From Thermoflexales bacterium (GTDB lineage: Bacteria; Chloroflexota; Anaerolineae; Fen-1058): 42,418 nt of DNA. Position 1 is the first letter of the stretch; each line of letters opens with the position of its first letter. Below, piece by piece: positions 1,913-21,529 of the stretch. The notes below the pieces were generated by a model that ran no database searches, had not been told where the DNA came from, and was given only the letters and a program-made list of their open reading frames with translations. The translations under genes were made by a program, and so were the position numbers. Where the stretch lies: contig JAUQXC010000259.1 in assembly GCA_030834825.1 (NCBI GenBank), forward strand, positions 1 to 42,418. The letters run 5' to 3'.

Positions 1913-4900
1913 ATGTCACACCTTGCTCTCTCGTTTTTGGGTATCTTTCAGGTCACGCGCGACGGCCAACCCGTGCGCGACTTTCGCGTGAATGCGGCGC
2001 GTGCTTTGTTGGTCTATCTGGCGCTGGAGTCCGATCGACCGCATCGTCGCGAGTCGCTGGCCGGCTTATTGTGGCCGGATCTGCCCGATGGGGTGGCGCT
2101 CCGCAATCTGCGCCATACCTTAACGGATCTGCGTCACGCCCTGGGTGAGCCTGAGGCGGTTTCCGCGCTGCACGTCACGCGCCGTACGCTTCAATTCAAT
2201 CTCGATCGATCCACGTGGCTCGACGTGGCGGCTTTTCAGCGGGGAATTCGCGCGGCTGATTTGAGCGAGATTGAGCAAGCCGTGGCGTTGTATCACGGTC
2301 CGTTATTAGCCGGCCTGGCGTTGACGAACAGCCCGCTCTTTGAAGAGTGGCTGCTGGTGCGCCAACAACACTTGGCACAATTAGCTGTAGCTGCTCAACA
2401 GCGGCTGGCCGAGTGGTACGCTGCCTCCGGCGACTATCGCCGCGCGCGCGACTATGCCGCGCAGATGTTGGAGATCGATCCGTGGCACGAGGTGGCGCAG
2501 CACTTGCTGATGCAGGCCCTCGCCCTCGACGGGCAGCGCGGGGCGGCGCTGGCGCAGTACGAAGCCTATCGTGATCAACTGGCTCGCGAGCTCAACGCTC
2601 AACCCTCTGGCGAACTAACCGCCGCCTATGAACGTCTGCGGCTGGGGCAGCGTGCCATCTCCCCCTTGCGCGCCTCGCTTGGCGCGACGCCCCCGACAAG
2701 TGATGTTGTCGCGCCGACGGAGTTTGCCACGCCGACGCAGTGTGTTGCCCGTGATCAGGAACTGGCGCGGCTTCAGCAATTACTTTCTCGCGCACGGCGC
2801 GGATACACCCTATCCAACGCTCCACTGGAGCGTTGGGGGTGCCCTGGGGGTGGACATCTCGTCTTCATCAGCGGTGAAGCGGGCAGCGGGAAGACTGTCC
2901 TCTTGGCCGAGTTCACCCGGCGTGCCTTGCTGCTGAACAGTGATGTGATCATCGCGGGCGGCGCGTGCAGTGCGCAGACCGGGCAGGGCGATCCGTATTT
3001 ACCATTCCGTGAAATCCTGAAGCTCTTAACGGGCGACATCGAGGCCCACCGGGCCAGTGGCGCACTGGCCCCCGCTTACGCGCGCCGTCTCTGGGACGCC
3101 GTGCCGGAGGCTCTGGCCGCGCTCATCGAGCATGGCCCCGACTTAATCGGTCCGTTGCTGGATGGGCACACGCTGGCCTTGCGCGCAGAAGCCTTTACGC
3201 CGCTGCCAGCCCGGTGGCGCACCCGCTTGACTGAGCTGACCCAACGGCCCAGCCCGGCGCGCCCACTGGCCGATCTGCACCATCAAATCGCCACGGTGCT
3301 GGCCGCCATCGCGCACACACGTCCCCTCATCCTCATCATCGACGATGCGCAATGGGCCGACGCCGAAACGATCGGATTGTTGTTTCACCTGAGCCGCTTC
3401 TCGTCGGCGCGCTGGTTGATCTTGTGCGCCTATCGATCGGGTGACGTGATCGCCGATCGGGCCGGTCAACGGCACCCCTTGTCCTCCGTCATCAACGAAG
3501 TGCAACGTCTCACCGGCCAGCTACCGATCAATCTGGATGAGATTGAAGGGCGCGCTTTCATCGATGCACTCCTGGATGCCGAGCCGAATGAGTTGTCGGT
3601 CGAGTTTCGTGAGGCGCTCTATCAACACACCAATGGACACGCGCTCTTCACGGTCGAGATGATTAGCGGCCTGAAATCGCGCGGCCAATTAGTACGCAAC
3701 GAACGCGGCGCTTGGGTAGCGGGTGAGCAGCTGGAGTGGCAGCACTTGCCCGCCCGGGTCGAGGCCGTCATCGCCGAGCATGTCGAGCGTGTGCCCGCGC
3801 GCTGGCAAGCGCTCTTGCAAGCCGCGTGCGTGGCCGGCGGCGAGTTCATCGCCGGAGTTGTGGCCGGTGCCAGTGGGTTGGCCGAAGACGAGGTGGTGCG
3901 CGCTTTGAGCGGTGAGTTGAGCCAACGCTATCAACTGGTCACAGCCACGCGCGTCGAGCGCAGCGGCGCCCAGCGTTGGCTGCGTTATCGCTTTCGGCAT
4001 ACTTTGTTCGAGACTTACTTGTATCAGCGGCTGGATGCCGTGACGCGGACCCGGCTGCATGAAACGATCGGCACGGGGCTGGAACAGTGCTATGCCGATC
4101 GGCCCGACGCCATCGCCGAAAGCGCGTTGCAGTTGGCATGGCACTTCGAAGCGGCCGGTTTGAATTTGAAAGCGGCCGGTTACGAGCTGATCGCTGGACA
4201 GCGCGCCCAGCAGCTGTCAGCCTATCACGAGGCCAGCCAGTTGTTCATGCACGGTTTGACGCTGTTGGCCGCTGTGCCCGATTCGAGAGAACGCGCGCAG
4301 CTGGAAATGAACCTGCAATTGACGCTGGCCGCGGTCTTGTTAGAGCAAGGCTGGGGCACGCCCGATCAGGCGCGGGTGTTCGATCGGGCCTTGGAGTTGG
4401 CGCAGCAATCCGAGGCCACGATCGAATTGGCGTATGCGCTCCACCTGGCAGTCGATCTGGCTCAGGGTCGGGGGGAATCAGCCAAAGCCGTAACGGTGAG
4501 TCAGGATCTATTACGCCTGGCCGAGCAAATTGGGCGACCGCCGTTGCTGGCCTTAGCGCACTACTCACTGGGTTCGAGCCTGCTCTTGAGCGGCGACCTT
4601 GGATCGGCGCGCGCTCAGCTGGCCCAGGCTGTGCTGCTCAATGACCAGTCCTCCCAGCAAACGAATGCCCCGCTCACCGGCGCTGATGTAGGCCTCGGCG
4701 CATTGTCCTGGTCGATCCTGGCAGCCTGGCTAACGGGCGATCACGCGGCGGCCGAAGCGCACATTGAGCAGGTGATGGCGCGCGCTCACCAGATCGATCA
4801 TGCGTTTTCACTGGGCATCGCACTGATGGTTGGAGTCTGCCCCTATTGGTTATGGCAGGGCCGCTCCACCGAAGATCAAGGGCGGCACTACATCGATCAG

Positions 4901-5344
4901 TTAAGCCGCCTAGCAGAGGGCGACGTGCCGATGTTTCGCGCGTGGGTGAAGGTGTTTGACGGTTACTGGCGCGCGCGGCGCGGTGAGGTGACCGGCCTCG
5001 CCGAACTGCGGCAGGGCATGGCAGAGTGGGCGGTGACCGGCTCGCGCAGTGGCTATGCGTATCAACGCCTGCTGCTGATCGAGGCGTATTTGATCGCAGG
5101 CGAAATCGCGGCGGCGCAGCAAGCTGCTGACGAAGCCTGCGCCTTTATCGAGCAGTCGGGCAATCAGGTGTATGAGGCCGAACTGTATCGCTTAAGCGGC
5201 GAGATCGCTGCGGCACGGGGCGACAACGCTGAGGCCGAAGCGTGTTTCCGAGCCGCGATCGAAGTGGCGCAGGCACAGGGGGCGATCACCTGGGCGCAAC
5301 GGGCAATGCATAGTCTGGAGAGGGGCAGTCAATCCGTCATCTGA
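1913..5344 (+). CDS. BTAD-domain transcriptional activator with AAA ATPase and TPR region
   Basis: This is a 1143-aa cytoplasmic regulator of the AfsR/SARP-like large type. Residues 1-100 are the winged-helix DNA-binding part (starting MSHLALSFLGIFQVTRDGQP, with LLWPDLPD before the recognition region). Residues about 100-245 are the BTAD helical repeats (FEEWLLVRQQHL, YAAQMLEIDPWHE). Residues about 275-560 are a STAND-type ATPase with Walker A GEAGSGKT at 321-328 and Walker B LILIIDDAQWAD near 472-483. The C-terminal half is TPR/helical and rich in YHEASQLF- and RLSGEIAAARGD-like repeats. The family couples ATP-dependent oligomerisation to ligand or partner sensing and activates nearby promoters. 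The gene has its own promoter and stands alone, so its target is unknown. Length and domain order are normal for Chloroflexota. Confidence 0.9.
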   Translation: MSHLALSFLGIFQVTRDGQPVRDFRVNAARALLVYLALESDRPHRRESLAGLLWPDLPDGVALRNLRHTLTDLRHALGEPEAVSALHVTRRTLQFNLDRSTWLDVAAFQRGIRAADLSEIEQAVALYHGPLLAGLALTNSPLFEEWLLVRQQHLAQLAVAAQQRLAEWYAASGDYRRARDYAAQMLEIDPWHEVAQHLLMQALALDGQRGAALAQYEAYRDQLARELNAQPSGELTAAYERLRLGQRAISPLRASLGATPPTSDVVAPTEFATPTQCVARDQELARLQQLLSRARRGYTLSNAPLERWGCPGGGHLVFISGEAGSGKTVLLAEFTRRALLLNSDVIIAGGACSAQTGQGDPYLPFREILKLLTGDIEAHRASGALAPAYARRLWDAVPEALAALIEHGPDLIGPLLDGHTLALRAEAFTPLPARWRTRLTELTQRPSPARPLADLHHQIATVLAAIAHTRPLILIIDDAQWADAETIGLLFHLSRFSSARWLILCAYRSGDVIADRAGQRHPLSSVINEVQRLTGQLPINLDEIEGRAFIDALLDAEPNELSVEFREALYQHTNGHALFTVEMISGLKSRGQLVRNERGAWVAGEQLEWQHLPARVEAVIAEHVERVPARWQALLQAACVAGGEFIAGVVAGASGLAEDEVVRALSGELSQRYQLVTATRVERSGAQRWLRYRFRHTLFETYLYQRLDAVTRTRLHETIGTGLEQCYADRPDAIAESALQLAWHFEAAGLNLKAAGYELIAGQRAQQLSAYHEASQLFMHGLTLLAAVPDSRERAQLEMNLQLTLAAVLLEQGWGTPDQARVFDRALELAQQSEATIELAYALHLAVDLAQGRGESAKAVTVSQDLLRLAEQIGRPPLLALAHYSLGSSLLLSGDLGSARAQLAQAVLLNDQSSQQTNAPLTGADVGLGALSWSILAAWLTGDHAAAEAHIEQVMARAHQIDHAFSLGIALMVGVCPYWLWQGRSTEDQGRHYIDQLSRLAEGDVPMFRAWVKVFDGYWRARRGEVTGLAELRQGMAEWAVTGSRSGYAYQRLLLIEAYLIAGEIAAAQQAADEACAFIEQSGNQVYEAELYRLSGEIAAARGDNAEAEACFRAAIEVAQAQGAITWAQRAMHSLERGSQSVI

Positions 5345-5946: not shown

Positions 5947-7128
5947 TCACCTATCGCGCGCGGTCACAATGCCTTGCGCCGCGGCCCACTGGTTCACATC
6001 GCGCCGGCCGATGGCGGCTGCCATGAGATCAGGAAATTGATCGGGAGTGCAGGCAAACGCAGGGATGCCCAACGCGCTCAGCGTCGCTGCGGTGGCGTGA
6101 TCGAAACTCGGGGCACCGTCGTCACTCAAAGCCAGCAGGGCGATCATGTTTACGCCGCTGCCGACAAGCGCCGCCGCGCGCTTCAGCATCTCTTCGCGAT
6201 TGCCGCCTTCGTAGAGATCGCTAATCAGGATGAGGATGGTGTCGTGCGGCTGACGGATCAAGTTCTGGCAATAGCCCAACGCCTGGTTGATGTCCGTGCC
6301 GCCGCCCAACTGCACGCCAAAAAGAATGTCAACCGGATCGCTCAGTTCTTCGGTGAGATCGACCACCGAAGTATCGAACACGACGAAGCGCGTCTGAATC
6401 GATGACAGCGAAGCCAGCACCGAGCCAAAGATGCCGGAGTAGACCACCGAGGACGCCATCGAACCGCTTTGATCGATGCATAGAATGATCTCGCGCAAGG
6501 CCGATCGTTTGTGCCCGTAACCGATACGTGTTTCAGGAATGATCGTGCGATATTCCGGCTGGTAGTGCTTGAGGTTGGCGCGAATGGTGCGGTGCCAGTC
6601 GATCTCGTTGTGGCGCGGACGGCGGTTGCGCGCAGCTCGATTGAGACTGCCGGTCACGGCTTGCCGCAATTGGTTGGCCAGTCTCCGTTCCACTTCTTCC
6701 ACCACTCGCCGCACGACCAGCCGCGCCGTATCCTTGGTTTTGTTGGGAATGACGCTGCGCAACGCCAACAGGTTGGCGACCAGCTGCACATCCGGTTCGA
6801 CGGCCTGTAGCATTTCGGGTTGCAGCAGCATCTCGCGCAGATTCAGGCGATCCAGCGCATCCTGCTGCATGACCTTCACCACCGAGGAGGGGAAGTAGGT
6901 GCGAATGTCGCCCAGCCAGCGCGCAACGTTGGGGGCAGAACTGCCCAGCCCGCCGCGTCGATTCGTGCCGCGATCCTCGCCAGCGCCGTCCGCATCATAC
7001 AATGCGCTCAAAGCGCGATCGATGCCCTCGTCACTGCCTATCAACGATAGGCCGATCCCGTCGGCTTCATCACCACCGAGGATTAAGCGCCATCTCCGCA
7101 ATCGTTCGCTTTCAGCGATTGGCGTCAT
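5947..7128 (-). CDS. VWA (von Willebrand factor A) domain protein of the MoxR-VWA operon
   Basis: This is a 393-aa cytoplasmic protein and the last gene of the five-gene minus-strand operon. Its start overlaps the end of the DUF5682 gene by 17 bases, which indicates translational coupling. The N-terminal 200 residues are helical and basic. A VWA domain follows with an intact metal-ion adhesion site: DQSGS at 219-223, the threonine of GGGTDI at 275-280 (T278), and ISDLYEGG near 302-309. MoxR AAA ATPases usually work with VWA partners, in which the metal site binds a client carboxylate and the ATPase remodels or inserts metal into it (as in CobS/CobT and BchI/BchD chelatases, or CoxD/CoxE). The partner ATPase here is the gene at 9492. 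The client is unknown. Domain identification is strong and the role is inferred. Confidence 0.88.
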   Translation of the reverse strand: MTPIAESERLRRWRLILGGDEADGIGLSLIGSDEGIDRALSALYDADGAGEDRGTNRRGGLGSSAPNVARWLGDIRTYFPSSVVKVMQQDALDRLNLREMLLQPEMLQAVEPDVQLVANLLALRSVIPNKTKDTARLVVRRVVEEVERRLANQLRQAVTGSLNRAARNRRPRHNEIDWHRTIRANLKHYQPEYRTIIPETRIGYGHKRSALREIILCIDQSGSMASSVVYSGIFGSVLASLSSIQTRFVVFDTSVVDLTEELSDPVDILFGVQLGGGTDINQALGYCQNLIRQPHDTILILISDLYEGGNREEMLKRAAALVGSGVNMIALLALSDDGAPSFDHATAATLSALGIPAFACTPDQFPDLMAAAIGRRDVNQWAAAQGIVTARDR

Positions 7129-9445
7129 GTTCCAGTCCCAATAGTTTCATCACTAACGGCAGCGCTTTCTCAGCTCGTTCCACATCAAAGTCCGATCTCT
7201 GCGTATCGCTTCCTGCCTCCCGCGAAGCGCCCCCGTGGGGTTGCATGCTGTTTCCTGCACCCTGCTTTACCTTCTCGCCCATCTGCGTGCGCTCGGGTCG
7301 CGAGAACGTACTGAACGTGCGGCGCAGCAACGGCAGCAACTGCGTGAAAGCGTCTGCCGAAAGCGTAACTAACCACTCGTCGATGACGCGCCACAGCGCT
7401 TCATCGTGCAGCAGCAGCAAGCCGCTGCCACGCAGGAAACCTTCGATCCAGGCCGCCGCCTGTGTCGGTTCGTTCGCTGTCGATAACGCCAGGCTCATGT
7501 GCTGCGCGGCATCACTGGCGGTGAGCTGTCCCTGATTGAGCAACAAGCGACAACACCGTCCAGCGATGAGTCCATGCAACCCTTGTTGATCGCTGAGTTG
7601 TTTTAGCACGCCATGCCACGCGCTGGTGTAAGCGTCGTTCTGCAATATGCCGATCGCGTGGTGGACGTCAGTCAAGTGCTTGAGCATCGTCGCGGCCGCC
7701 TCGTCGTTGAGCGAGGCACACGCCCCTGGCAAGCCAATCACCATGCGTGCGATCAAGCCGGCAACGATATGATTCACGGCGCTTAGATCGGTCTGGCGTA
7801 CGTTGCCGTAGCGCAGCACGTTCACCAGCGGCGGCAGTGCCGCCATGAGATGCTGCACGTCACTGGCGACGGCGGCCTCGGCCTGCACGCGGTCCATCAC
7901 AGCCGGTACCGCTTCAGACAGATCGGCCAGCAAGACCCGATCGACCAGTTGGGTCAGCGTCGGCAGATCGGTGGCCTTGGTCGCCTTGTCGCTGGCGAAG
8001 GTCGTGGCCGCTTTCAGCACGGTATTGCCCCAGACACCGGCTTCGATCACGCCCACCACGAATTCGGGCTGCCACTGAATTTGCCACAATTCATGGAAGG
8101 TGCCCTTCACTTTGCCCGTGCGCTGCACCGCCCCCCACGGAATGTTGAGCAACCGCAGACGATGCAGCAAGCGGCTGCGATCGAGCTCGAGCGGCTGGCG
8201 CAGATCCAGATCGAGGGTGCGCTGTGTCACGTCCGCAGGCAAACGCAGGCGTTTCTGTTCGCGTTCCAGATCGCGTTGTAGCGGCGGCATCGGTGTGGCA
8301 GCGGGCACACGGCCCAACGTTTCGCCGACGATCAATTTGGTGTGGATCAACTGCAAGGGCAGATCGTTGCCAAAGCAGAACACGGTCTGCGCGGCGTCGT
8401 TCATCTCCGGCAAGCCCGGTATCGGTCGCTGGCGCAACGCGGCCAGTGTTTCCGCTAAACGTACGGCTTCGATGATGTGCGCCGACGATGCGTCGAGATC
8501 TTCTTTGCGCAGCAGCCGCGCCACCTTCGTCAACCACCGGATTGTCACGTGATCGCGCGTTGTCCACAAATGATCGTACCAACCGGGTGATTCGATGCCT
8601 GCGCCGTAGCCGCTGTGATATGAGAGGCGGCTGTACGTCCATGGCGTCCACGTCGCTTCGATTTTGATCTTGGGCAAGCCCTTTAACAACGCCGCATCTT
8701 CTTTCGCGGGCGGCAGCTTTGCCACTGCCGGAGCGTGCCACGCGCCACACACGACAGCGATGCGCTCGTAGCCTTCACGCTGCGCCGCGCGGATCGTCTG
8801 GCGCATGTACGCTTCGCGTTCGCGCTGCGGGCCGATCGGGTTGGGCGCATCCGGTAGTTCTTCACGAAGTGCCTCGCGTAGCGCCGTCATCGCTTCGAGG
8901 ATCGCGGCAAAAAGTTCGCGGGCATCGCGACGCTGCTCTACCATGTGTTCCCACCAGCGTTCGCCGTCTTGATAGCCGGCAGCTTCAGCCAGATATTGCA
9001 GAGGATCAAGATAAATCGCTGCTTGCGGCTCGCTATTGGCTGATGGCTGATGGCTACTTGCTTCCTGCTGCTCACGCTGCGCCGTCAGAGCAGCGATCAG
9101 TTTCAACTCGATCGCCAGTTGGTGCGTTTGCGGCAGATCCATGAAGCGCACCGGGATGTCGTGTTTCACGCCATACAATAGCGCCTGCCATTCCGGTGAG
9201 AACACGGCGAAGGGATAAAACACCGCGTGCTGCGGCTGATCGGGCACGTAGAGCAGCAAAGCCACGGGGGGCCGCATCTCGGCGTGCGCGATCAGCGGGA
9301 GGAGATCATCGGCTTCAGGCGGACCTTCCACCAGGATCGCATCGGGGCGCAGCTGCTCCAACGCGCGACGCAGACTGCGCGCCGAGCCCGGCCCGTGATG
9401 ACGAATGCCGAAGATGGTGGGTGATGAGGCAGTTGACTTAGCCAC
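7112..9445 (-). CDS. DUF5682 family protein
   Basis: This is a 777-aa protein starting at GTG 9445 with AAGG upstream. The opening FGIRHHGPGSARSL and the following ILVEGPPEADDLLPLI are the hallmark of the family I know as DUF5682. Three spaced motifs, GIRHH (13-17), VEGPPE (39-44) and GAWHAP (234-239), plus REAYM (210-214), follow the G-x-x-H / E / R-x-x-x-M / G-x-x-H order of the TraB/TIKI/EreA/ChaN superfamily, some of whose members are metal-dependent hydrolases. I infer a divergent member of that fold at the N-terminus, about residues 1-260. The remainder is helical and has no recognised fold. It sits between the MoxR ATPase (46-base gap) and the VWA gene (17-base overlap), so it probably belongs to their complex. 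Family call is firm; enzymatic activity is inference. Confidence 0.85.
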   Translation of the reverse strand: MAKSTASSPTIFGIRHHGPGSARSLRRALEQLRPDAILVEGPPEADDLLPLIAHAEMRPPVALLLYVPDQPQHAVFYPFAVFSPEWQALLYGVKHDIPVRFMDLPQTHQLAIELKLIAALTAQREQQEASSHQPSANSEPQAAIYLDPLQYLAEAAGYQDGERWWEHMVEQRRDARELFAAILEAMTALREALREELPDAPNPIGPQREREAYMRQTIRAAQREGYERIAVVCGAWHAPAVAKLPPAKEDAALLKGLPKIKIEATWTPWTYSRLSYHSGYGAGIESPGWYDHLWTTRDHVTIRWLTKVARLLRKEDLDASSAHIIEAVRLAETLAALRQRPIPGLPEMNDAAQTVFCFGNDLPLQLIHTKLIVGETLGRVPAATPMPPLQRDLEREQKRLRLPADVTQRTLDLDLRQPLELDRSRLLHRLRLLNIPWGAVQRTGKVKGTFHELWQIQWQPEFVVGVIEAGVWGNTVLKAATTFASDKATKATDLPTLTQLVDRVLLADLSEAVPAVMDRVQAEAAVASDVQHLMAALPPLVNVLRYGNVRQTDLSAVNHIVAGLIARMVIGLPGACASLNDEAAATMLKHLTDVHHAIGILQNDAYTSAWHGVLKQLSDQQGLHGLIAGRCCRLLLNQGQLTASDAAQHMSLALSTANEPTQAAAWIEGFLRGSGLLLLHDEALWRVIDEWLVTLSADAFTQLLPLLRRTFSTFSRPERTQMGEKVKQGAGNSMQPHGGASREAGSDTQRSDFDVERAEKALPLVMKLLGLEHDANR

Positions 9446-9491
9446 GATACCTTACAAGCACAGGATCTTTTTACACATTACGTTGTACGTA

Positions 9492-10574
9492 TTACTCACT
9501 CACTTCTCGACAAGCGCGATACAAATCTTTCCAACCATTGCGCTCTTTCACGACCGTCTCTAAATATTCCAGCCAGACCACGCGGTCCTGTACCGGATCT
9601 TTGACCACTGCGCCAACCAACCCTGCCGCAACATCGTTGGCGCGCATGCGACCGTCGCCAAAATGCGCGGCCAGCGACAAGCCATTAGTCACCACCGAGA
9701 TCGCTTCGGCGGTGCTCATGGTGCCGGTAGGCTGCTTGAGTTTGGTTTTGCCGTCGCTGGTCTTGCCATCGCGCAGTTCGCGGAACACTGTCACGATGCG
9801 ACGAATCTCTTCCAGCGCCGGTGCTTCAGCGGGCAGTTCCAGTGCGCGCCCCAGACTCTCCACGCGGCGCTGCACGATGTCAACCTCTTCGTCGATCGAA
9901 CTGGGCGTAGGCAGCACCACGGTATTAAGGCGGCGCTTCAATGCGCTCGAGAGTTCGTTCACACCCCGATCACGATTGTTCGCCGTGGCGATCACATTGA
10001 AGCCTTTCGTCGCCTGCACCTCTGAGTTGAGCTCGGGGATGGGCAGCGTCTTCTCCGACAGGATCGTGATCAGCGAATCCTGCACGTCCGACGGGATGCG
10101 CGTCAATTCTTCCACGCGCGCCAGTTGGCCGTGCTGCATCGCGCGCATGATGGGGCTGGGCACCAGCGCTTGCTGTGAAGGACCATCGGCCAGCAAACGA
10201 GCATAGTTCCACCCGTAGCGGATCGCTTCTTCACCCGTGCCCGCTGTGCCCTGCACCAACAACGTCGAGTCGCCTGCGATTGCCGCCGAGAGATGCTCGG
10301 ACACCCACGACTTGGCCGTGCCCGGCACGCCGATCAGCAGCAGCGCGCGATCGGTCGCCAGTGTCGCGATCGCAATTTCGATCAAGCGCGTACTGCCGAT
10401 GTACTTGGGCGACACCACAAACTTATTGGGCAGCGTGCCACCCAGCAGATATAGCGCCACCGCCCACGGCGACAGTTTCCAACTGGGCGGACGTGTCCGC
10501 GTATCGGCCTGGCTGAGTTCGTGCAGTTCCTCGGCGAATTGTTGCTCGGCGTGTTGGCGCAAAATATCAGTCAT
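9492..10574 (-). CDS. MoxR-type AAA ATPase
   Basis: This is a 360-aa cytoplasmic ATPase. ATG at 10574 has a strong AAGGAGAT ribosome site and overlaps the end of the DUF5691 gene by eight bases. Walker A is GVPGTAKS (82-89). The Walker B region reads LARVEELTR (151-159), followed by the helix [18 protein letters not shown] that is typical of MoxR and chelatase ATPases. Sensor 1 is VIATANNRD (194-202) and the arginine-finger region is SALKRRLN (210-217). The usual hydrophobic Asp-Glu of Walker B is replaced here by Val-Glu-Glu, so the glutamates must do this job. MoxR proteins form hexamers that act as chaperones or metal-insertion motors with a VWA partner, here the gene at 5947. Confidence 0.9.
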
Positions 10575-12087
10575 GGGTGATCTCCTTCAATATATCGTGA
10601 CGGAATTGTAAGAGCCGCAGGAATTTCTCCAACGCGGGCAGGGCCTTGGCGGTTTCGAGTGTGATCGGCGTCAAGCGCGTCGCAGCCTCACTCGCCAGAT
10701 CAGGATCGCAGCGGCAGGCGAGTTCTTCCAAAAACGACGACCATGTCCACGGCGAAACAAAAGCGTTCTGGGCCAGATGCTGTTGCAGCAGATCGAGCAC
10801 TGCCCGGCTGAGTTCGCGGCTCCACGGATGTGTGCACGCGCTCAACAACCAGCGCGCCGGTTGATCGGGATTGAGCGACGGATGCAGGCGCAGCACGTTG
10901 AGCGCGAAAGCCTCGCGCCGTTCGATCGGCAAGGCAGCCATCATTTGCGCCCGATCGATCTCCACCGCCGCGCGCAGATCGTCGCGCAAGATCGCTTCGA
11001 TCCAGTCGGCGTCGCGGCTGCGTTCGGCGGCCAGCGCCCAGCCGATTAGCAGATCGGTACGCCACTCGCTGCGGCTAGCGGCACCGATCAATGCTGTAGG
11101 CGTCACATTCCATTGTTGCGTCCACATGCCCGGCGATACTGCCCCGATGATTTGCCTGAGCCACCATGCTTTTTCACCGACGCCCTGTGGCGGTTTGAGT
11201 TCGACACCGTCGCGCTGCAGGGTTTTATCACACTCAGCAGGTAAGGTCACTTCGATCTGCACTTTGAGTAGTTGCTTTTTGTAGTTCAACAGCGGACGGG
11301 CGCGTTCGATCATGCGCTGGCAGAGTTGCGACTGCGGCAAGCGCGCGAGCAGATCGGCGGCGGCGTGGCGCACTTCCTTGCGGCGATCGTCGAGCGCTTG
11401 TTCGAGGAAGGATTCGTCGGCCAGGCCCAAACCGATCGCGAGTGCGGGCAAAAACGCCGCGCGATCGCCGCCCGCTTCGTTAGCCCAGGTAACGGCTAAC
11501 ATCTCGCGCGCGCGATCGGAATCGTGCCGCCGTAGTTGACGCAAGAGCGTCAGGCGCGCGCCGCGCATTCCAGTCTCCCAGAGTGCTTCATCCAATCCGC
11601 CGAGGGCGTATTCCCAATCGGGATTGAGCGAGGCCAGCCAACGGCCTCGTTGGCCCAACACCGCGCAGATCGCCTCGTGCAACTCGCGGCGCGCCTGGCC
11701 AAAATCCAGCAGGTCAGGCAATGTCTCATCGGGCACACGATGCTGCGCAACCGCGACTGCCCGCAGCCATTCTGGCAGCACTGACGTGTATTCTCCCGCC
11801 AGCATTTGCGACAGATGCCGACCGGCACGCGTGGAACAACGCGACATCTCGTCAAGCGGACAAACATCCGGCAGGGGCAGGGAATCGATCGGAGGTTGTA
11901 AGCCGCAGCGTTGATACAGGTTCGTGATGGCCGCTGCATTCAATAAAGCCTGTTCGCGATTGTTCACATCGAGCTGCGCCAGCGCAGTCTGCAACGCGCC
12001 CAACTGAGGCGCGAAGACCGGCGGCTGCCGCTCGGTGCCGAGCAACGCCGTTGCGACTAGATCCTGCCAGAGAGTCGTGTCACTCAT
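10567..12087 (-). CDS. DUF5691 family protein with HEAT-like repeats
   Basis: This is a 506-aa protein. Its ATG at 12087 shares one base with the stop of the SWIM gene (TGATG), so translation is coupled. The opening [20 protein letters not shown] fits the family I recall as DUF5691, which occurs almost only in this operon type. The middle shows HEAT-like helical repeats, for example [19 protein letters not shown] around residues 225-250, with the hydrophobic spacing of an alpha-solenoid. No catalytic motif, signal peptide or membrane segment is visible. A scaffold or client-binding role for the ATPase/VWA pair is an inference from position and solenoid character. Confidence 0.82.
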
Positions 12088-13415
12088 CAGTCACTCAAGC
12101 GCACAAAATGATCTGCGGCCCAGACGCTTAATGGCAGCAGATCATCGCCGTTCCATTCGCCAAAGATGGTGATCGGTCGTCCACCGCTCAGCGCCAAGAG
12201 ATGCCAGCCTTTGCTGAACGACGCCGTCAGCGGCAAAACGCGATCCTCGCGATCGCGCAGGAACCAGCGTTGATCGCGCTGCACCGGCACGACATCGACC
12301 AACGACAACGGGAATTGTTCCAGCCACGGTTGTTGGGTCAACGCAGCGGCGTAGGCGGCATACGCCTCTTTCAGGGAAGTGCAACCGGGGATGACGTTGA
12401 TCGCTTGAGCGTTCCCCGATCGATCTTTGAGCAGCGCCCGCAGTGGATACGCGCCAGGGAAATAGACAAGTGTTGCTTCAACCGATGTCGACGGCAGCAG
12501 GCTGATGTCCGAAAAAGGCTGTGTGCCATAGGCGAAGTTCAAGATCAATGCGGGACGCTGCGTGCGCGTACCCCACAACCAGATGCGCTGTGTGCGCAGG
12601 CGATCTTCCTCGGTGGTGCGTTGGCCCAAGACAAGCCAGCGATCGCTCACGCCGGCCTGTGCTAACACTTCGTCTTGATTCTGCGTCCAGCCAATTTGTG
12701 TCCGAACGTCGAGCTGGACATCGTCCGGGAGTGTGTCCAGCTGGCGATAACCTTCAATCAACAAATGCAGACGGCTGAGGCGATCGAGGAGACGTTCCTG
12801 CCAACCCGGACCATTGGCTGGAATCGTCGCCAACTCATGCACCCGGCGGGCGAGACCGGGGGCCTGGGCATCCACCAAGCGGGCGGCCGGCGTGCCCCAG
12901 AAGCTGTTCGACTGCGTCTGCGCCTTTGCCAGTCCACCGCGAATCAGATCGCGGAGCCAGACATCCAACTCGTCGATCCCGGCATCGATCTTCGCTTCGC
13001 GTTTAGCGGCACGTTTGCTCTGGGCCTCAGTATCGACGGGTTTGGGCAGGCGCTCTTTTTTCTCGGCCTGCTTCTGTGCGCGTTCATCACGAGTGTGTAG
13101 CCAGTCGGTGACCCAGGCGGGCGGCATGCTCGACTTGATCGTGGCAGGTTGATCGGCTAGTAAGAGGAATAGACCCAACGCATGCTTGCAGGGGAACTTG
13201 CGGCTGGGGCATGAGCACTTGAAAGCAGGCTCGCTCAGATCGATCTGGGCTTGATAGGGTTTAGCGCCGCTGCCGCGGCATTCACCCCAAACCGATCGAT
13301 TATCACGGCCTAACGACAACCACTTGTGTGGTGTCGCCAGCGTTTTGCCCGCTTGCGCAGAACTCGCATCAGATGCGAGAGCCAGAATTTGTTCGTAGGT
13401 ATAGGTCACATTCAT
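12087..13415 (-). CDS. SWIM zinc-finger family protein
   Basis: This is a 442-aa protein and the first gene of the five-gene operon, 26 bases after the -10 box at 13441. The SWIM motif C-x-C-x6-C-x-H is complete: C67, C69, C76 and H78 within [24 protein letters not shown] fingers bind zinc and are used for nucleic-acid or protein contacts. A basic linker with [14 protein letters not shown] and [14 protein letters not shown] follows at about 112-145, then a long region without known motifs. It probably supplies the recognition part of the system. What it recognises (nucleic acid, or a client of the ATPase) cannot be told from sequence. No strong ribosome site precedes the ATG, but the leader would be only about 20 bases. 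Confidence 0.87.
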
Positions 13416-13440: not shown

Positions 13441-13469
13441 ATTATCGGACTTCCCTCACGCGCTGTCGA
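13441..13469 (-). promoter_or_regulatory. Promoter of the SWIM/DUF5691/MoxR/DUF5682/VWA operon
   Basis: Read on the minus strand, TCGACA (13469-13464) and GATAAT (13446-13441) are separated by 17 bases, each with one mismatch to the sigma-70 consensus. The start would be near 13434, about 20 bases before ATG 13415. No other promoter was noticed inside the operon, where genes overlap or nearly touch. Confidence 0.7.
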
Positions 13470-13513: not shown

Positions 13514-13772
13514 TTCGAAATTCAGCGCGGTCGGGAGGGCCAGGCTAGATTCAGCGAGTCGCATCCCCATCAATGTGGCCATGGGAACTCGCCGCATGTT
13601 ACGGAGATTTGTTGGTGTCAATCGACAACAGTGACTGCCGAAGTTAGGCTTGCTGTTTCCGCCCGATCACCAACCGGGCCGTGACGATGATGGGTGTTAC
13701 ATGGTGATTACCTGATCACGGCGATGTTGCTGCAACTGACAGCCGTTGCTCTCCAATTCGACATTTGGCGTG
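13514..13772 (+). repeat. Dispersed intergenic repeat, copy A
   Basis: This copy shares two blocks with the copies at 30332 and 33387. The first, from CGAAATTCAGCGCG (13516) through a GTTACGGAGATTT-like stretch, matches copy B. The second, containing GCCCGATCACCAACCGGGCC and CGTGAC (about 13661-13686), matches B and C, and similarity with C continues to TTGCTCTCCAATTCGACATT (near 13764). The core can fold as CCCG-loop-CGGG. It has no long intact reading frame and appears to be a decayed repeat between the divergent operon and the histidine kinase gene. Confidence 0.7.
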
Positions 13773-13871
13773 AACGACCTTTTCAGCATTTTCAACTGCA
13801 AGTTTAGCACGTCCATCCTCACCGCAAGGGCGTTCTGTGGTAGGATTTCCGTAGTGCAGACTGGCAAACAC

Positions 13872-16604
13872 ATGGATCGATCGACCCTGTTCCGTTGGGT
13901 TTTCTGGCGGCGCGACTTAGGGCTGCAACTGCTGGCTCTATATTTGTTGTTCGTGTTGCCTGTGGTCGCGGCGGCCTTGATCTTCGATCGCGCTGCCGGC
14001 GCACAGCTGGAACGCGATGTGCAGGCCGCCGATCTGGCGCTGGGTCAATCAGTGGCGCTGGAGACTGACGCCTTCTTGCAGCAGGCTATGGACGCGGTCG
14101 AATCATTCGCGCAGCTGCCCGAAGTTCGGTCCGGCGATCCTGCGCAGTTCGCCGACTTATTTGCGGCGGCGACTGCCGCGCGCAGCGACATTAACCTCTT
14201 TTACTTCCTCGATGCGCAGGGCGTGATGCTCTATCACTATCCCACCGGGCCGGGCAGTACGGTGGGACAAGATTTCTCCTTTCGCCAATATTTCATCGAC
14301 GCGCGTGCAGCCGAGGGTCCGGTGATCTCCATCGGGCGAGTGTCGCCGACCACGGGTGAGCCGGTGGCGACGGTGGCACAGCGTGTGTTGAATGCGCGCG
14401 GCGAATTCAGCGGCGTCGTCGCGACGAATCTGGCGCTGGCCCGCTTGAGTGATACCTTGCAGGCGATCAGCGCGCAGGAATCGGCCGATCGTCTCGAGCT
14501 CAAACTCAGCATCATCGACGCCGTCGGCCAGATCGTGGCTCAGCCCCATCGAACCCGGCTGCTCGGCGATGCTTACGCGCAAATTCCCGAGATGCGATCG
14601 TGGCGCAGCGATCTGCCGGTCAGCCGCGTCGTGACCGATCCCGATCGGCGCGAGTGGTTGTTGTCGCTGGTGTCCATCCCCAGCGCCAACTGGATCGTCG
14701 CCGTCCAACGTCCGACCGAGGTCGCCTTCGCTTCGCCGCGCGCCTTTCACACCGGCCTGTTGATCGCCATGAGCATCTTCGTGATCGGCGGCCTGTTTTT
14801 CTGGATGATGTTGTCGCGCCGGGTGATCGAGCCGTTGGAGCGCCTGGCGTCGTTCAGCCGATCGATCGGGCGGCGCGACGACCGCTCACTGCACACCCAG
14901 CGTGCGCCTGATCTGGCCAACGTGATCACGCGCCCCGATCAAATGGGCCACCTCACGCGCGAGCTCAAACGCATGGAAGAATCGATCGAGCAGCGGTTTG
15001 CCGAGCTCGCCACGCTGTTGGAGACCAGCAGCGCCACCTCGTCCAGCTTGGACGCCGATCAGGTGATCAGCATCATCCTGGAGCAAGTGCAGCGCTTGAT
15101 GAAGGTGGACACCTGCGCGCTGGTGGCGCTGGATCGGCGTGAGAATGTGCTGCGCATCCGCGCCAGCCGCGGGTTGAGCGCCGACTACGCGCGTGAGCTG
15201 CGCATCGATCCGCACGAACCGCGCTCGCCGTCCATGCGCGCCATCACCACGGGCCATCCGGTGCAGGTGCCCGACACCGACACCGACATTGCCTTTGAGC
15301 CGTTTCGCGCGCGCGCGCAGCGAGAAGGTTATCGTTCACTGCTGGCGGTGCCGCTCAACGCGCCGCACATCGGGCCGGCAGCGCTGCTGGTCTATCGGCG
15401 CGAGCCGCACGTATGGGGCCACGACGAGATCGAATTGATCGGCAGCTTCGCCAATCACGCGGCGATGGCGCTGGAAAACGCCGCGTTGTATCGGTTGACC
15501 GACGAGCAGTTGCAAGAGCAACAGCGCGTCCTGGAATCGGTGATTCAGAGCCTGGACAATGGCTTGATCCTGCACGATTCAACGGGTCGCGTCTTGTTCG
15601 CGAACCGGCGGTTGGCCGAATCCATTCAGTCGACGCCCGCCGAGCTCGAAGGCCAAGCCAGTGCGTGGGTCTTGCAGCGGATGCGCCCGGCAGCGGTTAA
15701 GCCAGACGAATTTGAGCAGCTGCATGCGGCGGCCATTGCCGGTTCCGGTTCACGCACCTTTGAGTTTCAGATCTGGCAGAGCGGCCAGAAGCGCGACATG
15801 CGCGGGCGCATCTTCGACGTGAGCGACGACGACGGGCGGCTCATCGGCAAGGGGGAACTGTATCAGGACATCACACGCTATCGCGAACTGGACCGCATGA
15901 AATCGTCGCTGATCAGCACCGTCTCGCACGAGCTCCGCACGCCGCTGGGTGCCATCAAAGGTTATGCCACGACTCTGCTGCAGGACGATGTCGAATGGGA
16001 CAACCTATCGGTGCGCCAGTTCGCGCAGGTCATCAGCGATGAGTCTGATCGGCTGGCGCTCCTGGTGAACGATCTGCTTGACATGAGCCGCATCGAAGCC
16101 GGCACGCTGCATTTGCACAAGACCGAAGCGTCCCTGGCCGACGTCGTCGCACGTGCGGTTGACGAAGTGAACGATGCCGGCGCGCATCCGCTGACGATCG
16201 ACGTGCCCGCGCAGCTGCCCCAGCTGGACATCGATCCGCGCCGCGTGCAGGCGGTGGTGCGCAATCTGCTGGAAAATGCGGTCCAATATTCGCCGGCAGG
16301 ATCGCCGATCGAGATTCAAGCGGAAGCCCGCAACGGATCGATCCTGCTGCGCGTGCGCGATCACGGATCGGGCATTGCGCCGGAACATCGTGATCGCATC
16401 TTCGAGCGTTTTTATCGCGCCGACGAGGGTTACACGCAGACCGGCGGCGGCGCGGGCTTGGGCCTGGCCATCTGCAGAGGCTTCGTCGAAGCACACGGCG
16501 GCTCGATCTGGTTGGAGGACACAGACGGCGGCGCGTCGTTCGCTTTTACGCTGCCGCTGGGTCTGCCAGAAGCTAGGCCGCTCATCATAGAAGAAGAGTC
16601 GTGA
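13872..16604 (+). CDS. Membrane sensor histidine kinase (Cache-HAMP-GAF-PAS-HisKA-HATPase)
   Basis: The chosen ATG 13872 gives 910 aa. A GTG at 13854 behind AGGA is the main alternative, and the frame further upstream runs into repeat A. Order: TM1 (about 17-37); extracytoplasmic Cache/PDC-like sensor (about 40-285, with DFSFRQYFIDA and GEFSGVVATNLAL); TM2 (about 293-314); HAMP (about 315-375); GAF (about 390-535); PAS (about 550-670); HisKA with phospho-accepting H686 in STVSHELRTPLGAIKGY; and the ATP-binding domain with N box NLLENA (798-803), DHGSGI (830-835) and GGGAGLGL (858-865). All catalytic boxes are intact. It overlaps its response regulator by four bases and lies directly before an amino-acid importer, so it may sense the imported ligand or a related one. 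That link is inferred. Confidence 0.93.
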   Translation: MDRSTLFRWVFWRRDLGLQLLALYLLFVLPVVAAALIFDRAAGAQLERDVQAADLALGQSVALETDAFLQQAMDAVESFAQLPEVRSGDPAQFADLFAAATAARSDINLFYFLDAQGVMLYHYPTGPGSTVGQDFSFRQYFIDARAAEGPVISIGRVSPTTGEPVATVAQRVLNARGEFSGVVATNLALARLSDTLQAISAQESADRLELKLSIIDAVGQIVAQPHRTRLLGDAYAQIPEMRSWRSDLPVSRVVTDPDRREWLLSLVSIPSANWIVAVQRPTEVAFASPRAFHTGLLIAMSIFVIGGLFFWMMLSRRVIEPLERLASFSRSIGRRDDRSLHTQRAPDLANVITRPDQMGHLTRELKRMEESIEQRFAELATLLETSSATSSSLDADQVISIILEQVQRLMKVDTCALVALDRRENVLRIRASRGLSADYARELRIDPHEPRSPSMRAITTGHPVQVPDTDTDIAFEPFRARAQREGYRSLLAVPLNAPHIGPAALLVYRREPHVWGHDEIELIGSFANHAAMALENAALYRLTDEQLQEQQRVLESVIQSLDNGLILHDSTGRVLFANRRLAESIQSTPAELEGQASAWVLQRMRPAAVKPDEFEQLHAAAIAGSGSRTFEFQIWQSGQKRDMRGRIFDVSDDDGRLIGKGELYQDITRYRELDRMKSSLISTVSHELRTPLGAIKGYATTLLQDDVEWDNLSVRQFAQVISDESDRLALLVNDLLDMSRIEAGTLHLHKTEASLADVVARAVDEVNDAGAHPLTIDVPAQLPQLDIDPRRVQAVVRNLLENAVQYSPAGSPIEIQAEARNGSILLRVRDHGSGIAPEHRDRIFERFYRADEGYTQTGGGAGLGLAICRGFVEAHGGSIWLEDTDGGASFAFTLPLGLPEARPLIIEEES

Positions 16605-17296
16605 GCATGCCCCAGACCACCATCCTCATCGTCGATGACGAAGCACCGTTGCGCGATTTTGTCCGTCGCAATCTGGAGAAACGCGGCTATCGCACGTTCA
16701 GTGCTGTTGACGGTCTGGAGGCGCTGGCGGCGTTCGAGCGCGAACCGATCGATCTGATCATCCTCGACGTGATGATGCCCAACCTCAACGGCTTTGAAGT
16801 GTGCCGCCGCATCCGGCAGACGTCGATCGTGCCCATCATCGTGTTGACGGCACTGGGCGAAGAGCAGGACAAGATCACCGCCTTCGATCTAGGCGCGGAT
16901 GATTACCTGACCAAACCCTTTGGGGTGGGCGAGCTGCTCGCGCGGCTCAAAGCCGTGCTGCGCCGATCGCACTGGGAAAGCGCGCCGCCGTCGAGTGAAA
17001 CCCTGCGGCACGGCAATCTCGAGATCGATGTTGAGCAGCGGCGCGTGCGGCGTGCTGGAAGCGACGTGCGCCTGACGCCGACTGAGTTCACGCTGCTGAC
17101 CGAGCTGGCAACCCACGCCGGCAAAGTGCTGACGCATCGCGCACTGCTGCAAAAAGTGTGGGGGCCGGAATATGGCGGCGAGAACGAATATTTGCGCGTG
17201 TACATCAATCGGCTGCGGCAAAAACTCGAAGCCGATCCTTCTCAGCCCAAACACCTGCTGACCGAACAGAGCGTAGGTTATCGTTTTCAACCGTGA
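16601..17296 (+). CDS. OmpR/PhoB-family response regulator
   Basis: This 231-aa protein starts at GTG 16601, overlapping the kinase stop (GTGA); ATG 16607 is an alternative. The receiver domain has the acidic pair D12/D13, phospho-acceptor D56 in IILDVMMPNLNG, T83 in VLTALG and K106 in DDYLTKPFG. The C-terminal winged helix (about 135-231) has LTPTEFTLLTELATHAGKVL, VWGPEYGGENEYLRVYI and the final SVGYRF, all typical of PhoB-like DNA-binding domains. It is almost certainly the partner of the kinase upstream. The binding-protein gene starts about 106 bases downstream and is a likely target, but no clear direct-repeat operator could be picked out by eye. Confidence 0.95.
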   Translation: MSMPQTTILIVDDEAPLRDFVRRNLEKRGYRTFSAVDGLEALAAFEREPIDLIILDVMMPNLNGFEVCRRIRQTSIVPIIVLTALGEEQDKITAFDLGADDYLTKPFGVGELLARLKAVLRRSHWESAPPSSETLRHGNLEIDVEQRRVRRAGSDVRLTPTEFTLLTELATHAGKVLTHRALLQKVWGPEYGGENEYLRVYINRLRQKLEADPSQPKHLLTEQSVGYRFQP

Positions 17297-17402
17297 TCCG
17301 GGTGTTTATATTTCTTTTACATCTAGCAAGTGTCTTTTATGCCTCTTTAACGCCCCGGCGGGTACACTGATCCTCATCCCACATCAGTCAGGAGGATCAG
17401 GC

Positions 17403-18668
17403 ATGTCTCGCCATTTGCTTCGCAGTGTTTCGATTGGCGTCATTCTCGCACTCTTGATCGTCGCCTGCCAGCCGGCAGCCGCGCCCAGCGGCAATCAGCC
17501 GAGTGGGCAGGCCAGCGACTGCAAGATCACCTTTGGCGCGGCGGTCTCGCTGACCGGCAAGACGGCCAAAGAGGGCGGCTACGTCAAAGACGGTTACGAG
17601 CTGTACAAGGACGAGATCAACAAAGCCGGAGGTTTCAAGGTCGGCGACAAGCAGTGCTTGATCGACATCAAGTACTACGACGATGCCAGCGATCCCGATA
17701 CCAGCGCGCAGTTGACCGAGAAATTGGTCACGGAAGACAAGGTCGATCTACTGCTGGGGCCTTACGGCACCAATCCCACGTTCTCGGCTTCGGCGGTCGC
17801 CGAGAAGTACGAGATCCCCATGATTGAAGGCGGCGGCGCGGGGGTGAAGATCTTCGATCGGGGTTACAAGTACATCTTCGGCACGCTGCCGGCCGCGCCC
17901 TTCTATCTGCGTAGCGTGATCGATGCCGTGCTGGCAAAGGACTCCTCGGTCAAGACCGTGGCGATCCTCGTCGAGAACGATGGCTTCTCGCAAGAAGTCG
18001 CCACCGGCGCTGAAGAGTATGCCAAAGAAAAAGGCCTGGAAGTTGTCTACAAGGAGCAGTATCCTTCCAATACACAAGACGTATCCTCGTTGATTACGGC
18101 CGTCAAGGCCAAGAACCCCGACATGATCCTGGGCGCGGGCCACGCGGCTGATGCGATCTTGATCATGAAGGGCCTGAAGGATCAGAAGGTCAACGCCAAA
18201 GCTTACGCCTTCTCGGTGGGGCCGACCTCGCCCGACTTTCGCAAGACGCTGGAGAAGGACGCGGACTTCGTGCTGGGCATTGGCCCGTGGACGGAAGCGA
18301 TGAAGTTCCAGGGCACCGACGTCTTTGGCACACCCCAGAAATTCGCCGATATGATGCGGGCCAAGTACGGCGAAGAGAATTACAAGACCGTGCCCTATCA
18401 GGCTGCCTCGGCTGCTGCCGCATTGCTGGCGTATCAGAAAGCGATCGAGGCGGCAGGCAGCACCGATCCAAAGGCTGTGCGCGAGCAGCTGGCCCAGCTC
18501 GATCTGCAAAGCTTCTACGGCACGATCAAGTTCTCACCCGAAGGCATCATCGTCAAACCGATGGGTGTGGTGCAGCTCAATCCCGATGGCAAGCTCTACA
18601 CCGTCTATCCCGCCGACGCTGCCAACGGTGAGTTCCTGTACCCGGCCAAGGCGTGGGATCAGCGCTAG
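17403..18668 (+). CDS. Branched-chain amino-acid type ABC transporter substrate-binding lipoprotein
   Basis: This is a 421-aa lipoprotein. ATG 17403 follows CAGGAGGATCAGGC, a strong ribosome site. The signal peptide ends in the lipobox LIVAC, so C22 would be acylated. A low-complexity Pro/Ala/Ser linker then leads to a Leu/Ile/Val-binding-like domain (Peripla_BP_6 type): ITFGAAVSLTGKTAKEGGY, LLLGPYGTNPTFSASAVAEK, PMIEGGGAG and GIGPWTEAMKF. It captures a small solute outside the membrane and delivers it to LivHM. The true ligand could be branched-chain amino acids, other amino acids, amides or aromatic acids, because this fold is promiscuous. It heads the transport operon and is followed by a strong hairpin. 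Confidence 0.93.
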   Translation: MSRHLLRSVSIGVILALLIVACQPAAAPSGNQPSGQASDCKITFGAAVSLTGKTAKEGGYVKDGYELYKDEINKAGGFKVGDKQCLIDIKYYDDASDPDTSAQLTEKLVTEDKVDLLLGPYGTNPTFSASAVAEKYEIPMIEGGGAGVKIFDRGYKYIFGTLPAAPFYLRSVIDAVLAKDSSVKTVAILVENDGFSQEVATGAEEYAKEKGLEVVYKEQYPSNTQDVSSLITAVKAKNPDMILGAGHAADAILIMKGLKDQKVNAKAYAFSVGPTSPDFRKTLEKDADFVLGIGPWTEAMKFQGTDVFGTPQKFADMMRAKYGEENYKTVPYQAASAAAALLAYQKAIEAAGSTDPKAVREQLAQLDLQSFYGTIKFSPEGIIVKPMGVVQLNPDGKLYTVYPADAANGEFLYPAKAWDQR

Positions 18669-18680
18669 CCTCACCCCTTT

Positions 18681-18743
18681 GTCCCCCTCTCCTGGCGGCC
18701 AGCCGTCCCGCCGCTATGCGGACACGGGACGGAGAGGGGGAAC
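18681..18743 (+). terminator. Strong stem-loop between binding-protein and permease genes
   Basis: GTCCCCCTCTCC (18681-18692) pairs with GGAGAGGGGGAAC (18731-18743). GTCCCG (18705-18710) pairs with CGGGAC (18725-18730). No T-run follows, so it is more likely an attenuator or a 3'-end stabiliser than a full terminator. Such hairpins commonly allow the binding protein to be made in excess over the permease. Confidence 0.65.
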
Positions 18744-18760
18744 CTGGCAGGAGGATAGTT

Positions 18761-19654
18761 GTGTCTGGAATTCTCATCGGCCAAAGCGCCATCAACGTGC
18801 TGCTGCTGTCAGGTGTCTTGACGATTGCCGCGCTGGGTTTCTCCATCGTGTGGGGGGTGATGAACATCATCAACCTGGTGCACGGTGCGGCCATCATGCT
18901 GGGCGCCTACGTCACCTTCATCGCCTTCACATTCGCCGGCATCGATCCCTTCTTGACCATCCCAATCTCGATGGTGCTGCTCTTCGGACTGGGCTACCTG
19001 ATTCAGCGCAACATCATCAACTACGTCATGCGTGCGCCGATGCTGACCACGTTTTTGCTGACGTTCGGGCTGGAGATCATCATCATCAACCTGGCGCAGT
19101 TTTTCTTCAAGAGCGATCTGCGCGCTATCACGACCGGCTACAGCGGATCCAGCCTGACGCTGTATGCTGATCCGGCGGCGAACTCCAGCATTGAAGTCCC
19201 TTACATTAAATTGGGTGCGCTCATCGTCGCGCTGCTGCTGACTTTGCTCACACACCTGCTGATGAGCCGGACGCGGTTGGGCCGCGCGATCCGATCGACC
19301 GGCATGGACAAGGACGCGGCGCAGCTTACCGGCGCACGCATCAGCACGATCTATGCCCTGACCTTTGCCATTAGCGCGGGCCTCGCGGGCGCGGCAGGAT
19401 CGTTGATCGCGATGACGCAATCGTTTCAACCGGGCTTCGGTGGAACTTACACGCTGTATGCCTTCGTGATCGTCGTGCTGGGCGGGCTGGGCAGCGTACC
19501 GGCGGTGTTTCTCGGTGCATTGGCCTTTTCATTGATCACGGTGCTGACCGGCTTATGGCAGCCGGGCTTGACGCAGGCGGCGGCCTTTGCACTGCTGGTG
19601 ATCATGCTCGTCGTACGGCCCTCGGGGATCGCGGGTAAAGCATTCTATCAATAA
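18761..19654 (+). CDS. livH: LivH-type ABC transporter permease
   Basis: GTG 18761 follows CAGGAGGATAGTT and gives a 297-aa inner-membrane protein starting MSGILIGQSAINVLLLSGVL. An upstream in-frame ATG at 18653 would lie inside the previous gene and the hairpin and is rejected. About eight to nine hydrophobic spans are visible, with the family signatures GFSIVWGVMNIINLVHGAAIMLGAY near the N-terminus and AVFLGALAFSLITVLTGLW near the C-terminus. The cytoplasmic loop RTRLGRAIRSTGMDKDAAQLTGA (the EAA-like contact for the ATPases) is present. It forms the translocation path with LivM. Confidence 0.94.
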   Translation: MSGILIGQSAINVLLLSGVLTIAALGFSIVWGVMNIINLVHGAAIMLGAYVTFIAFTFAGIDPFLTIPISMVLLFGLGYLIQRNIINYVMRAPMLTTFLLTFGLEIIIINLAQFFFKSDLRAITTGYSGSSLTLYADPAANSSIEVPYIKLGALIVALLLTLLTHLLMSRTRLGRAIRSTGMDKDAAQLTGARISTIYALTFAISAGLAGAAGSLIAMTQSFQPGFGGTYTLYAFVIVVLGGLGSVPAVFLGALAFSLITVLTGLWQPGLTQAAAFALLVIMLVVRPSGIAGKAFYQ

Positions 19655-19664
19655 GGTGCGACTC

Positions 19665-20741: not shown

Positions 20742-20755
20742 TCGCGGACAAAGCC

Positions 20756-21529
20756 ATGTCACACAACGAAATCATCCTGACCACAGAACGGGCCGGTAAG
20801 ACTTTCGGCGGATTGGCGGCCGTCAGCAAGGTTGATCTGACGCTGCGGCGCGGCGATGTGATCGGATTGATCGGCCCGAACGGCGCGGGCAAGACGACGT
20901 TCGTCAACATCATCACGGGCATGCTGCCGATCTCTGCGGGCAAGGTTACCTATCGGGGCCAGGACATTACCGGCTGGCCGGCGTATCGCGTGGCCCGCCT
21001 GGGCATCGCGCGCACCTTTCAAGTCGTGAAGCCGTTCCGCAACATGACCGTGCGCGAAAACGTGGCGGTCGGCGCGATGTATGGCGCGGGCGGCGCGCGC
21101 CGTTCCACGCGCGAAGCGCTGCGCCGCGCCGACGAGGTGCTGGAGTTTGTCGGATTGCTCGATCAACGCGAGCGCCACGCCGAGCAGCTGACACTAGCCT
21201 GGCTCAAGCGGCTGGAGCTGGCCAAAGCGCTGGCCATGGAGCCGGAGGTGTTGTTCCTCGACGAAGTCATGGCCGGCTTGAACCCCAAGGAGATCGAAGC
21301 GGCGATGGATCTGGTGCGGCAGATCAATCAGCGCGGTATCACGCTGCTGATCATCGAGCACGTCATGAAAGCCATCATCGGCGTCTGCCAGAATGTGTTC
21401 GTGCTGCACTATGGGCAGAAATTGGCCGAAGGACGTCCTGAGGAAGTCCTGCGCGATCCGAAAGTGATCGAAGCTTATCTGGGCAAGAAATACGCCGAGC
21501 AGCTGGAGGCGCGCGATGCTGAAAATTGA
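20756..21529 (+). CDS. livG: LivG-type ABC transporter ATP-binding protein
   Basis: ATG 20756 gives 257 aa starting MSHNEIILTTERAGKTFGGL; the longer in-frame extension upstream only shadows livM. Walker A is GPNGAGKT. The ABC signature is degenerate: the expected LSGGQ place reads LTLAWLKRLELAKALA, the L(S/T)(L/Y)xxxRxLE(L/I)A(R/K)ALA form common in LivG-like subunits. Walker B is EVLFLDEVMAGLNPKE and the H-loop is LLIIEHVMKAI. The protein ends with a LivG-type C-terminal helix that includes EEVLRDPKVIEAYLGKKY. It hydrolyses ATP with LivF to drive uptake. Confidence 0.94.
   Translation: MSHNEIILTTERAGKTFGGLAAVSKVDLTLRRGDVIGLIGPNGAGKTTFVNIITGMLPISAGKVTYRGQDITGWPAYRVARLGIARTFQVVKPFRNMTVRENVAVGAMYGAGGARRSTREALRRADEVLEFVGLLDQRERHAEQLTLAWLKRLELAKALAMEPEVLFLDEVMAGLNPKEIEAAMDLVRQINQRGITLLIIEHVMKAIIGVCQNVFVLHYGQKLAEGRPEEVLRDPKVIEAYLGKKYAEQLEARDAEN

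Follow-up and report, generated by a model that had tools for sequence, protein, structure and literature searches.

A conserved five-gene MoxR-VWA operon related to Escherichia coli yehLMPQ, with a predicted TIKI/TraB-type hydrolase

Gene organisation of the locus

Within the window (the whole stretch of 42,418 nucleotides that was analysed), positions 5947-13415 hold five near-touching genes on the minus strand. An earlier note on this DNA had described these genes as an operon, and the corresponding ORFs were found as it placed them, with a Pfam family matched by each of the five proteins:

12087..13415, minus strand: SWIM zinc-finger protein, 442 aa (Pfam SWIM PF04434, E=7.6e-6)
10567..12087, minus strand: DUF5691 protein, 506 aa (PF18944, E=6e-146)
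9492..10574, minus strand: MoxR-type AAA+ ATPase of the YehL type, 360 aa (AAA_5 PF07728, E=3.8e-37)
7112..9445, minus strand: DUF5682 protein, 777 aa, YehM homologue with a GTG start (PF18934, E=3.3e-293)
5947..7128, minus strand: CoxE-like VWA protein, 393 aa (VWA_CoxE PF05762, E=2.6e-52)
13441..13469, minus strand: candidate sigma-70-type promoter of the operon (consensus match, not beyond chance)

Read from the SWIM gene to the VWA gene, the successive junctions are a 1 bp overlap, an 8 bp overlap, a 46 bp gap and a 17 bp overlap. The SWIM, Walker A and VWA MIDAS motifs, which had been reported as intact, were all present in the translations. Specifically, the MoxR protein carries Walker A (GVPGTAKS) at residue 82 and the VWA protein carries its MIDAS (DQSGSM) at residue 219 along with GGGTDI; VEELTR is likewise intact. 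The promoter candidate (TCGACA-17-GATAAT, 13469-13441) agrees with the consensus at 10/12 positions and lies ca. 26 bp ahead of the SWIM start. Its previous description as a good promoter thus holds for its placement but not for its consensus, which by itself is at chance level (3 promoter-like sites in the region versus 2.0 +/- 1.3 in shuffles).

Conservation of the five genes

The case for a functional set had been made to depend on the five genes being conserved together, and a neighbourhood survey found that they are. This survey covered 90 loci, consisting of 80 named genome loci retrieved by a DUF5682 alignment search, loci from E. coli, plasmids and a phage collection, and the window itself. 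All five families occurred in the same order at 65 of these loci, and at another three (one of them, L060, a case of overlapping ORFs) they were all present but rearranged by start coordinate; many of the remaining loci stop at a contig edge. About a dozen phyla carry the ordered set in this DUF5682-seeded survey, whose named phyla include Cyanobacteriota, Chloroflexota, Planctomycetota, Bacteroidota, Pseudomonadota, Acidobacteriota, Verrucomicrobiota, Armatimonadota, Deinococcota, Actinomycetota, Thermodesulfobacteriota and Thermomicrobiota.

Because seeding with DUF5682 favours the close relatives of the seed, 301 genomes from the phylum of the window served as a less biased test. DUF5682 was found in 42 of these genomes and DUF5691 scored above cut-off in 31, while the two occurred together in 29 (p=5e-28) and were neighbours in 25 of those 29. 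The five genes are a real conserved unit. Its most conserved parts are the MoxR and VWA proteins (median identity across phyla of 73% and 65%, respectively), with Walker A detected in 81/83 MoxR relatives and the MIDAS in 79/80 VWA relatives.

Some individual loci were arranged differently. At four of them (L046, L063, L080 and L114) a DUF5682 gene is present but the stretch covered shows none of its four partner families, and in Streptomyces alfalfae (L118) the SWIM and DUF5691 genes are divergent from MoxR-DUF5682-VWA. On a Methylosinus plasmid (L035, 11214-12382) the VWA gene is split across three frames, so that this copy looks broken. Six genomes from one family of the phylum (G034, G043, G078, G102, G110 and G281) encode divergent DUF5682 proteins of ca. 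900 aa, and no DUF5691 was detected there. Genes for an RtcB RNA ligase lie near the set at two loci (L056, 1344-2822, and L066, 3967-5391), which might be due to chance.

Relationship to yehLMPQ of E. coli

E. coli K-12 holds yehL, yehM, yehP and yehQ in one tight gene run. The window MoxR protein is 40% identical to YehL over 349 aa (E=1.2e-74), the VWA protein is 36% identical to YehP, and the DUF5682 protein shares about 25-30% identity with YehM. The Pfam SWIM profile scored above cut-off in both YehQ and the window SWIM protein, and homology between these two was not detected outside the finger. The two sets thus share orthologous MoxR, DUF5682 and VWA proteins with a linked SWIM-finger protein, although the E. 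coli set differs in its order (MoxR-DUF5682-VWA-SWIM), in the absence of DUF5691, and in the presence of a DUF4132 protein (YehI) upstream. With its YehL-orthologous MoxR, linked DUF5682, CoxE-like VWA and SWIM-finger gene, the window operon belongs to the YehL-type MoxR systems.

YehL is a named subfamily of MoxR proteins (PMC3893208). Since yehLMPQ is a system of this same kind, with a MoxR subfamily that already has a name, the set is not new, and the proposal that it forms an undescribed system has to be given up. No published function for yehLMPQ or for the five-gene set was found in the literature searched (where the yeh gene names returned mostly author-name noise), and literature searches for DUF5691 and DUF5682 found no paper. 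Among complete E. coli genomes, 5181/5426 (95%) carry yehLMPQ at a coverage of at least 80%, nearly always as one chromosomal copy.

A DUF4132 gene (ca. 1000-1200 aa) adjoins the set on the same strand in E. coli, in Iodobacter and at seven Bacteroidota loci, with HEAT matches in those of the Bacteroidota copies that were scanned. The DUF4132 protein recurs in this way as a sixth partner, but it was not found in the genome of the window. Elsewhere, the family has been seen in a Deinococcus DNA-damage regulon (PMC8533742).

DUF5682 as a predicted TIKI/TraB-type hydrolase

A relationship of DUF5682 to the TIKI/TraB enzymes was set down from three motifs (GIRHHGPG, LVEGP and REAxMR...VVCGAWH) before any structure was predicted. 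In the window protein, these correspond to:

9386..9412, minus strand: motif 1 region, residues 12-20 (FGIRHHGPG), at the end of strand 1 and ahead of the start of the Pfam match
9323..9337, minus strand: motif 2, residues 37-41 (ILVEG), with the invariant E40 right after strand 2
8732..8818, minus strand: motif 3, residues 210-238 (REAYMR...VVCGAWHA), with the invariant R210 and H237

Residues H16, H17, E40, R210, G234 and H237 were invariant in 59/59 sequences, and the catalytic-type residues (GxxH, E, R, GxxH) are retained in E. coli YehM. An AlphaFold2 model of DUF5682 (pLDDT 90.5) consists of an alpha/beta domain spanning residues ca. 1-290, followed by a C-terminal alpha-solenoid, and R210 falls in the helix preceding the strand that ends in GAWH. 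When this model was compared with viral models using Foldseek, the best match was a TraB family protein (probability 1.00, E=2.5e-3); against the PDB, the whole model yielded solenoids only (E>0.01) among the best 50 matches listed.

In a profile alignment with TraB (PF01963), which ranked first among the families tested, the GxxH, E, R and GxxH residues came into register. This match is not significant on its own (hhalign E=0.013 versus 0.031 for the best control), 2/50 block shuffles scored as high, and the local match weakened to 0.033 when more TraB sequences were added. A direct search of DUF5682 for a PF01963 match found none. However, the profile test has little power, because the published pair TraB and Ere also went undetected by it. 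The TraB sequences had to be taken from other genomes, since 151 genomes from the phylum of the window gave no PF01963 match. The Ere and ChaN families were also considered as relatives of DUF5682 and set aside, as they gave no usable profile match, and a sequence search of solved structures returned no credible relative of DUF5682, SWIM or VWA. The Pfam PF18934 match starts only at residue 25, beyond the conserved GIRHHGPG motif, and this may be one reason that a link to TIKI/TraB has been missed.

The TIKI family depends on essential His/Glu residues, conserves a basic residue close to the active site, and includes enzymes that can be metal-dependent (PMC6254334). What DUF5682 shares with the TIKI/TraB/PrgY/GumN superfamily (PF01963) is the order GxxH, E, R, GxxH on matching strands and helix, whereas it differs in its long C-terminal solenoid, in the double histidine (GIRHH) at motif 1, and in a profile similarity that does not reach significance. 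By its modelled structure and its motifs, DUF5682 appears to have a TIKI/TraB-type hydrolase as its N-terminal domain, probably with the same fold. Invariant motifs of this type, together with the TraB fold match, lend support to the idea in the earlier note that DUF5682 may be the effector, or working enzyme, of the set, with a hydrolase as the predicted activity. A Wnt-pathway protease is another member of the superfamily.

SWIM and DUF5691 proteins

The SWIM finger comprises residues 67-78, and its zinc ligands were invariant in 41/41 sequences. In the AlphaFold2 model of the protein (pLDDT 94.6), the finger is followed by a helical middle part and a beta-rich C-terminal half (256-442). A Foldseek search of the PDB placed OB-fold nucleic-acid binders (CST, LEF-3, HIN, RPA70 and SSB) at 23 of the best 50 matches, each of them individually weak (best E 4.8e-3). 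As modelled, the C-terminal half thus resembles tandem OB-folds, making a nucleic-acid-binding protein probable and agreeing with the recognition role previously assigned to it.

HEAT_2 matches were obtained in 10/35 DUF5691 relatives (best 1.9e-5), which supports the earlier view of DUF5691 as a solenoid and makes a HEAT-type alpha-solenoid adaptor the probable assignment from its sequence. The SWIM and DUF5691 proteins are naturally fused into one protein at three loci (L032, L048 and L065). Predicting the structure of the pair as one such fusion was dropped, as MAFFT spread the DUF5691 rows across the SWIM part.

A possible ATP-driven machine and its alternatives

The YehL-type MoxR and the CoxE-like VWA proteins would, by their family membership, form the usual pair of ATPase and co-chaperone, and such pairs elsewhere mature or remodel dedicated complexes (PMC3893208, PMC7159879). 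As DUF5682 is the sole linked enzyme candidate in the window, we infer that the pair activates or feeds it. Our tentative reading, to which we give a probability of roughly 0.4, is that the five genes specify an ATP-driven machine with a predicted hydrolase at its centre, in which MoxR-VWA acts on the TraB-like DUF5682 and SWIM provides the targeting. The SWIM protein with DUF5691 would find the target, probably nucleic acid or nucleoprotein, and the VWA protein may link the MoxR ring to the SWIM-DUF5691 complex or to its client. Remodelling driven by ATP hydrolysis could then switch DUF5682 on or supply it with substrate, and DUF5682 would in turn cut a bond of the peptide or ester type. That the parts are so constant speaks for a fixed cellular client, as in maintenance or a stress response, rather than for an arms-race effector.

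A rival but doubtful explanation is that the task of MoxR and VWA is metal insertion or the assembly of a complex, in the manner of CoxDE or NorQD, with DUF5682 or an unlinked enzyme as the client, SWIM and DUF5691 as assembly factors, and no involvement of nucleic acid. Characterised MoxR-VWA pairs mostly act as such maturation chaperones (PMC3893208), the window VWA protein is a CoxE family member, some TIKI-type enzymes may depend on a metal (PMC6254334), and the concentration of conservation in MoxR and VWA would fit as well. As in CoxDE, NorQD and RavA-ViaA, the gene for a MoxR-type ATPase lies close to that for a VWA partner, but here the pair is linked to DUF5682, DUF5691 and SWIM instead of to a known cofactor enzyme. 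Moreover, apart from DUF5682 and the DUF4132 protein, no enzyme gene recurs in linkage and the neighbours vary between loci, while SWIM and OB-like domains would be unusual in cofactor insertion.

The ATP-driven machine can also be worded more specifically, as an AAA+ protease-like device in which the nucleic-acid-binding SWIM/OB protein would bring a MoxR-VWA motor to a TIKI/TraB-type peptidase, clearing or processing proteins bound to DNA or RNA, with yehLMPQ as the model; we consider this version unlikely. Another narrower form of the machine, and an improbable one, is nucleoprotein quality control, in which SWIM/OB would bind nucleic acid with trapped protein, MoxR/VWA would unfold that protein and the TraB-like domain would clip it. 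For this, p97 with SPRTN in eukaryotes offers a rough parallel. The predicted SWIM and OB-like parts and the predicted placement of DUF5682 in a protease-type superfamily point in this direction, as does the DNA-damage regulon where the DUF4132 partner family has been seen (PMC8533742), but that link to DNA damage runs via a family that the genome of the window lacks.

The least probable of the alternatives, and one we regard as quite improbable, is an NTP-dependent conflict system akin to the MoxR-VWA ternary systems, in which SWIM would sense invader nucleic acid, MoxR/VWA would set a threshold and DUF5682 would kill: the patchy presence of DUF5682 in the phylum, the intermixing of phyla in its tree, the location of some copies on plasmids or beside a few restriction genes, and the published precedent of other MoxR-VWA sets (PMC7159879, PMC10910872) speak for it, but the set is a nearly always single-copy chromosomal resident of E. 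coli, its flanking genes are mostly ordinary, PADLOC matched none of the five proteins, a search of 2.9 million viral contigs did not find the set at the sensitivity used, and the same five proteins recur throughout the survey with no swapping of effectors. Indeed, the ternary systems (Kaur et al. 2020, PMC7159879) have in common with the window a MoxR and VWA core with further partners, but the bpMoxR profile (PF20030) reached only 22.5 bits on the window MoxR against a cut-off of 27, Pfam showed no beta-propeller family among the five proteins, the variable effector of those systems has no counterpart in the constant families surveyed here, and the paper describing them makes no mention of SWIM or Yeh proteins. 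The conflict role raised in the earlier note, or a role in defence, consequently finds little positive support.

Two further lines were set aside. Running PADLOC on 125 flanking proteins, a qualitative comparison made without a matched control set, returned only a few clear defence genes, and carriage by phage was suggested by a 'phage' record (MT835988, L038, with MoxR-DUF5682-VWA) that is an unverified contig, and no viral contig supported such carriage.

What is new here is that DUF5682/YehM is predicted to have a TraB-like active site and that one half of the SWIM protein of the five-gene set is OB-like. For the near-universal E. coli operon yehLMPQ, these predictions replace 'unknown' with testable claims, concerning the equivalents of H16, E40 and H237 and the binding of nucleic acid. 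If the proposed ATP-driven machine is real, it would add an ATPase-controlled member to the TIKI/TraB enzymes.

Other features of the window

On the plus strand, the operon is adjoined by a BTAD-AAA-TPR regulator of the SARP type (1913-5344). Also on the plus strand, 13746-21529 holds a histidine kinase with dCache, GAF and PAS domains and a response regulator, and after them a cluster for a branched-chain amino acid ABC transporter. Further along, at 23133-26657 on the minus strand, a 1174-aa protein carries an unusual domain combination of BTAD, a protein kinase and two alpha/beta-hydrolase stretches.
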